Origin: Apostichopus japonicus
Lineage: Eukaryota; Echinodermata; Holothuroidea; Aspidochirotida; Stichopodidae
Reading direction: 5' to 3'
Assembly (NCBI RefSeq): GCF_037975245.1
Contig: NC_092562.1
Span: 26,089,054 to 26,153,053, forward strand
Length of the DNA stretch: 64,000 nt
In this document: piece by piece, positions 17,112 through 17,479 of the stretch
How positions within the stretch are numbered: position 1 is the first letter of the stretch
Layout: every line of letters starts with the position of its first letter
Position numbers and translations under genes: made by a program
Notes under the pieces: model-generated
Database searches by the model: none
The model's input: the letters and a program-made list of their open reading frames with translations, nothing else
What the model was told of the DNA's origin: nothing

Positions 17112-17479
17112 TTATAAATTGAGTCCTGAAAGTGCGATAATGGCAGTTTTCGGCGATCAGTGTGGATAAAATGCCTTTTATTCAATTATGTATGCAACAC
17201 GTCCGCATGTTATCTTCATTTGCCAGTAGACTACATGTTCAACGTTTATATATATATATATATATATATATATATATATATATATATATATATATATATA
17301 TATATATATATATATATATATATATATATATATATATATATATAAACGTTGAACGTGTAGTCTACTGGCAAATGAAGATAACATGCGGACGTGTTGCATA
17401 CATAAATGTAAAAAGGCATTTTATCCACACCGATCGCCGAAAACTGCCATCATCGCACCTTCAGGACTCAATTTATAGC
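17112..17479. mobile_element. Foldback/MITE-like inverted repeat with (TA)49 core
   Basis: Two arms of about 135 bp (17112-17246 and 17345-17479) are inverted copies with only a handful of differences. Both start TATAAATTGAGTCCTGAA when read inward. They flank an uninterrupted (TA)n run at about 17247-17344, so the whole locus can fold into one very long hairpin. The outer TATA is compatible with a TA target duplication, as in Tc1/mariner-derived MITEs, but palindromy hides the true edge. The mirror-image Tyr-Ile open frames on both strands are artefacts of this repeat. Confidence 0.85.

Follow-up and report, generated by a model that had tools for sequence, protein, structure and literature searches.

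A near-perfect palindrome with a pure (TA)49 core in Apostichopus japonicus: a candidate MITE-like element

The window, by which we mean the whole 64-kb stretch of Apostichopus japonicus DNA analysed, contains one recognised gene. This is membralin (Pfam PF09746), encoded on the minus strand; its coding matches, found at nine places, run from 45300 to 37275. Five of the nine match the named A. japonicus protein at 90-100% identity and the other four at 54-77%; in the stretch 40447-40653 the agreement is complete (69 of 69 residues). The named protein departs from the reading in the window after 'GGLQG', its remaining tail matching another frame, and the database entry may be frameshifted. When ten open reading frames across the window were chosen from the 25 of at least 110 amino acids, only membralin rose above the Pfam cut-off; a match to DUF1765, under its cut-off, fell in the same open reading frame. 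A six-frame Pfam scan of 1-35 kb gave no domain, transposase domains included, at E-values up to 0.01; this stretch takes in the 10-25 kb around the palindrome described below. Membralin, recovered in three minus frames, was the positive control for the Pfam scan. No tRNA gene was found in the window.

A near-perfect palindrome (Table 1) lies about 20 kb away from the point where the membralin coding matches end. Its arms are identical in 127 of 134 aligned columns; what separates them is a gap of one base and six substitutions, of which four stand alone and are transitions, and the remaining two, both transversions, form one small cluster with the gap. The core is a pure TA repeat (49.0 copies, 100% matches) that exactly fills the space between the arms, which are themselves of mixed sequence (38% GC in the left arm). 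Arm identity stops immediately outside the terminal TA/TATA, and the outer flanks (...TTTACCACT and GCTTTTACATT...) are unlike each other, with only TATA, and no TA tract, outside the arms. The giant near-perfect hairpin of the preliminary description, with arms of about 135 bp differing at few positions and a pure (TA)49 centre, is thereby borne out, and its coordinates prove right to within two bases. The same description had assumed that the hairpin lies in an inferred intron; this finds no support, membralin being some 20 kb away and 1-35 kb having no Pfam domain, although the hairpin may still lie in a gene of short exons, in one without Pfam domains or in a UTR intron.

Table 1. Positions of the two palindromes in the window and of the parts of the first
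Feature	Positions	Strand	Remarks
Palindrome with TA core	17113..17477		365 bp
Left arm, 134 nt	17113..17246	+	starts TATAAATTGAGTCC, finishes CAACGTT; inverted copy at 17345-17477
Pure (TA)49 core	17247..17344		adjoins both arms without spacer
Right arm, 133 nt	17345..17477	-	inverted copy of left arm
Left terminal TATA	17113..17116		possible TA (or TATA) target-site duplication
Right terminal TATA	17474..17477		possible TA (or TATA) target-site duplication
Second palindrome	42068..42186		119 bp; two arms of 57 nt with mismatches at 2 of 57 positions; loop of 5 nt; no TA core

The second palindrome of Table 1, absent from the preliminary description, lies between the membralin exon matches 41877-42002 and 42651-42890, that is, in a membralin intron, so that the membralin pre-mRNA, if transcribed, would carry its hairpin. 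It was rejected as a relative of the first, since a blastn search with the arms of the latter (E-values up to 10) gave no match inside it. Several other repeats were seen in the window. A 47-bp minisatellite (1-955) fills its left edge, and repeat pieces at 8064-8821 and 56234-56326 are related to each other but inverted (three matches, 77-91% identity). An inverted pair at 52297-52498 and 60285-60484 is 92% identical over 202 columns; set against the A-box and B-box consensus, the copy at 52.3 kb shows motifs resembling both (TAGCTCAGTGG, GGTTCGAGTC) and the other a B-box-like motif only, a pattern which suggests a tRNA-derived SINE. Finally, 57716-57790 combines G-rich runs with a nearby C27 homopolymer and is likely to be a weak spot for sequencing.

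The self-complementarity of the first palindrome was assessed in two ways. With RNA parameters the predicted folding energy is -275.6 kcal/mol, compared with a mean of -75.7 (sd 4.9) for shuffled sequences (z about -41), and with DNA parameters it is -182.4, compared with -35.1 (sd 3.6); none of 100 shuffles was as good in either case. With either set the predicted structure is one long hairpin, broken only at the arm differences. Cruciform extrusion and double-stranded RNA should be read solely as structural potentials of the palindrome. Counted directly, 59 of 60 positions flanking (TA)49 on one side are complementary to those on the other. Among 20000 centres drawn at random in the window the average is 18.9, with 100 at 40 or above and a maximum of 58, figures in which high-scoring centres in AT arrays or palindromes are pooled with those in other sequence.

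The same measure was applied to other TA tracts in the window. The tracts at 25.4 and 33.7 kb, said in the preliminary description to be without arms, indeed score 15 of 60 each, under the random mean. The window has 13 pure dinucleotide runs of at least 10 units; four of these, all within the impure AT array at 31.8-32.1 kb, owe scores of 52-56 of 60 to flanks that are TA repeats too. All 13 runs are TA/AT and long TA tracts, with or without arms, are therefore common here, which fits TA slippage as a general habit of the local DNA.

Sequence searches with the arms were largely negative. In the 64-kb window blastn (E-values up to 10) found no further arm copy, the matches besides the two arms being of 11-28 nt with E-values of 0.27 or worse. 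IMG/VR viral contigs, scanned twice for exact patterns, did not yield the arm sequence, and a distant blastn search of the left arm against plasmids gave no match. A 21-nt pattern scanned through 257 billion bases of bacterial and archaeal genomes produced one match, in which 22 nt are identical to a stretch of an Actinomycetes MAG contig with 51% GC over 8000 bases. The rest of the window did not match that contig at E-values up to 1e-3 and, with about 0.1 chance 21-nt matches expected, the hit was treated as chance. The viral, plasmid and prokaryote results say little, because none of these collections consists of animal genomes. At the protein level, the right-arm translation in one frame drew no candidate relative and the arm translations in five of six frames drew 76, none of them at E-values up to 1. 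Empty or chance results of this kind are what a repeat from an animal would be expected to give in such collections. The observed/expected CpG ratio is 1.24 in the left arm and 1.37 in the right, compared with 0.75 in the window, but 18% (left) and 6% (right) of 6387 overlapping 134-nt windows contain as many CpG. As a sign of recent arrival the enrichment was dropped, being too weak.

We consider it probable that the palindrome is a copy of a palindromic (foldback or long-inverted-repeat) MITE-like, non-autonomous DNA transposon of the TA-target type, whose centre has grown by slippage. MITEs run up to about 600-800 bp, and at 365 bp, with no Pfam domain and no relatives among the arm translations tried, the palindrome has the size and the non-coding character of the class. 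Its inverted repeats, the arms, reach both ends, the ends are TA, and the pure core takes up precisely the space that the arms leave. The foldback MITE with an expanded core proposed in the preliminary description is thus the best fit to the anatomy, while for the multi-copy status which defines a MITE the palindrome stands as a candidate. On the other side, there is no further arm copy in the 64 kb, although a single window is a small basis for judging this, 1-35 kb holds no transposase domain and the arms are not clearly set apart by CpG. Non-autonomous elements of the Tc1/mariner type have a TA target-site duplication and share their inverted repeats with an autonomous element that bears a transposase; of this the palindrome shows TA ends only. 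These ends carry little weight because 8.8% of the dinucleotides here are TA and a palindrome-terminal TA mimics a target-site duplication. Since TA is its own reverse complement, and the terminal TA or TATA self-complementary, a duplication here is not separable from part of the palindrome and its identification stays ambiguous.

The course of events under the MITE-like reading would be short. An element without coding capacity of its own would have inserted once at a TA site, the original centre of symmetry being a short TATA. Slippage, together with replication stalled by the hairpin, would then have added TA units at the tip until (TA)49 was reached. Because TA is self-complementary, units can be gained or lost without disturbing the palindrome, and tip slippage leaves the hairpin intact and its stem even longer. 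Mobility, family membership and expansion of the core after insertion are what we infer from the anatomy. An insertion that has aged would fit the arm divergence of about 5%, and so would ends that already differed in the ancestral element. Today the copy is probably inert, no more than a passive structure that tends to slip and to break.

On the MITE-like reading the locus is a tidy example of a palindromic mobile element seeding a long TA microsatellite, and the palindrome is likely to be an unstable site for assembly and cloning. Should many copies carry TA cores of varied length, they would form a natural series in which to measure slippage at a hairpin tip. The broader idea that centres of palindromic elements are nurseries for (TA)n in this genome strikes us as improbable; were it true, TATA-centred palindromic MITEs would repeatedly grow TA cores and other loops, such as that of the second palindrome, would not.

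The alternative that survives best, although we think it rather unlikely, is a unique inverted duplication with no transposon involved. The (TA)n would have come first and, in replication or break repair, a nascent strand would have folded back on it, copied some 133 nt of its own upstream sequence and switched back, leaving (TA)n in the middle of a palindrome. TA tracts are both self-complementary and common here, the core sits at the exact centre with no spacer, and the arm has no other copy in the 64-kb window, all of which agree with such an origin. It does not predict TA at both ends of the palindrome, even if the chance of this is not small in AT-rich DNA, and the second palindrome, having no TA core, shows that (TA)n does not accompany every palindrome that arises here.

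A source of long double-stranded RNA with a regulatory role, whether as a hairpin RNA precursor or as a producer of endo-siRNA or piRNA-like species, is very unlikely. RNA of the stretch is indeed predicted to fold into one long hairpin, but such folding is expected of any palindrome, and no gene was recognised in the 17 kb to the left or the roughly 20 kb to the right (with 35-37 kb outside the Pfam scan). Nor could the palindrome be assigned to a known structured RNA family, the window having no Rfam match at gathering score.

Sequencing and assembly have difficulty with palindromes and long TA tracts, and the exact TA count is doubtful. It is nevertheless highly improbable that the whole structure is an assembly artefact, whether from a misjoined repeat or from a chimeric inverted read. 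In a read folded back on itself the arms would be the same throughout, barring sequencing error, and the arms here differ at the positions described above; the flanks on the two sides are also unlike. Least likely of all, and by our estimate barely credible, is that one (TA)n tract received two copies of a short element which targets TA microsatellites, in opposite orientations: the account of pineapple Ac-mMITE clusters describes adjacent elements parted by almost pure (TA)n, but also a TA microsatellite on one or both sides of about 74% of elements (PMC8449440), whereas only TATA lies outside the arms here, and the 134-nt arms would both need to be entire elements, none of which occurs singly in the window.

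How, then, does the palindrome compare with known systems? Palindromic or foldback MITEs, of which Tetris of Drosophila virilis is reportedly a foldback example, are similarly short and non-coding, with inverted repeats over nearly the whole element; the centre of the present candidate differs in being a long TA microsatellite. The human palindromic AT-rich repeats (PATRR) are said to be long AT-rich palindromes able to form cruciforms. They share with our locus a long palindrome with AT-rich sequence, except that here the arms are of mixed sequence and only the core is pure TA. The DINE-1 element of Drosophila, reportedly of Helentron type, invites comparison on account of its interior. DINE-1/mini-me is a mobile element with an internal microsatellite of variable length, but it has 13-bp subterminal inverted repeats in place of the full palindrome seen here (PMC2374699). 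The BrickBuilt MITE of Porphyromonas gingivalis is alike in its internal tandem array; it is bacterial, has a 23-nt repeat unit and has inverted repeats only as small ends (PMC4596501).

Two plant families tie MITE- or transposon-type inverted repeats to (TA)n more directly. Pineapple Ac-mMITE (PMC8449440) is a MITE family, and Medicago MuTAnT (PMC4486113) a Mutator-like family, that target (TA)n, and in both the tract lies outside the element as its insertion target. At our locus the tract is inside, at the centre of symmetry, and the flanks are without (TA)n, so that we rejected membership of this TA-microsatellite-targeting type. A study in yeast reports that a longer spacer makes breaks at palindromes less frequent, and that chromosomes can contain cruciforms (PMC8053094); by analogy this supports instability at such sites in general rather than at this locus directly. 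A limited look at the best-ranked literature matches, by title or abstract opening, gave no central-TA palindromic element in an echinoderm. Compared with these known systems, a palindromic element that has a TA tract exactly at its centre is only slightly different, and ordinary in kind.
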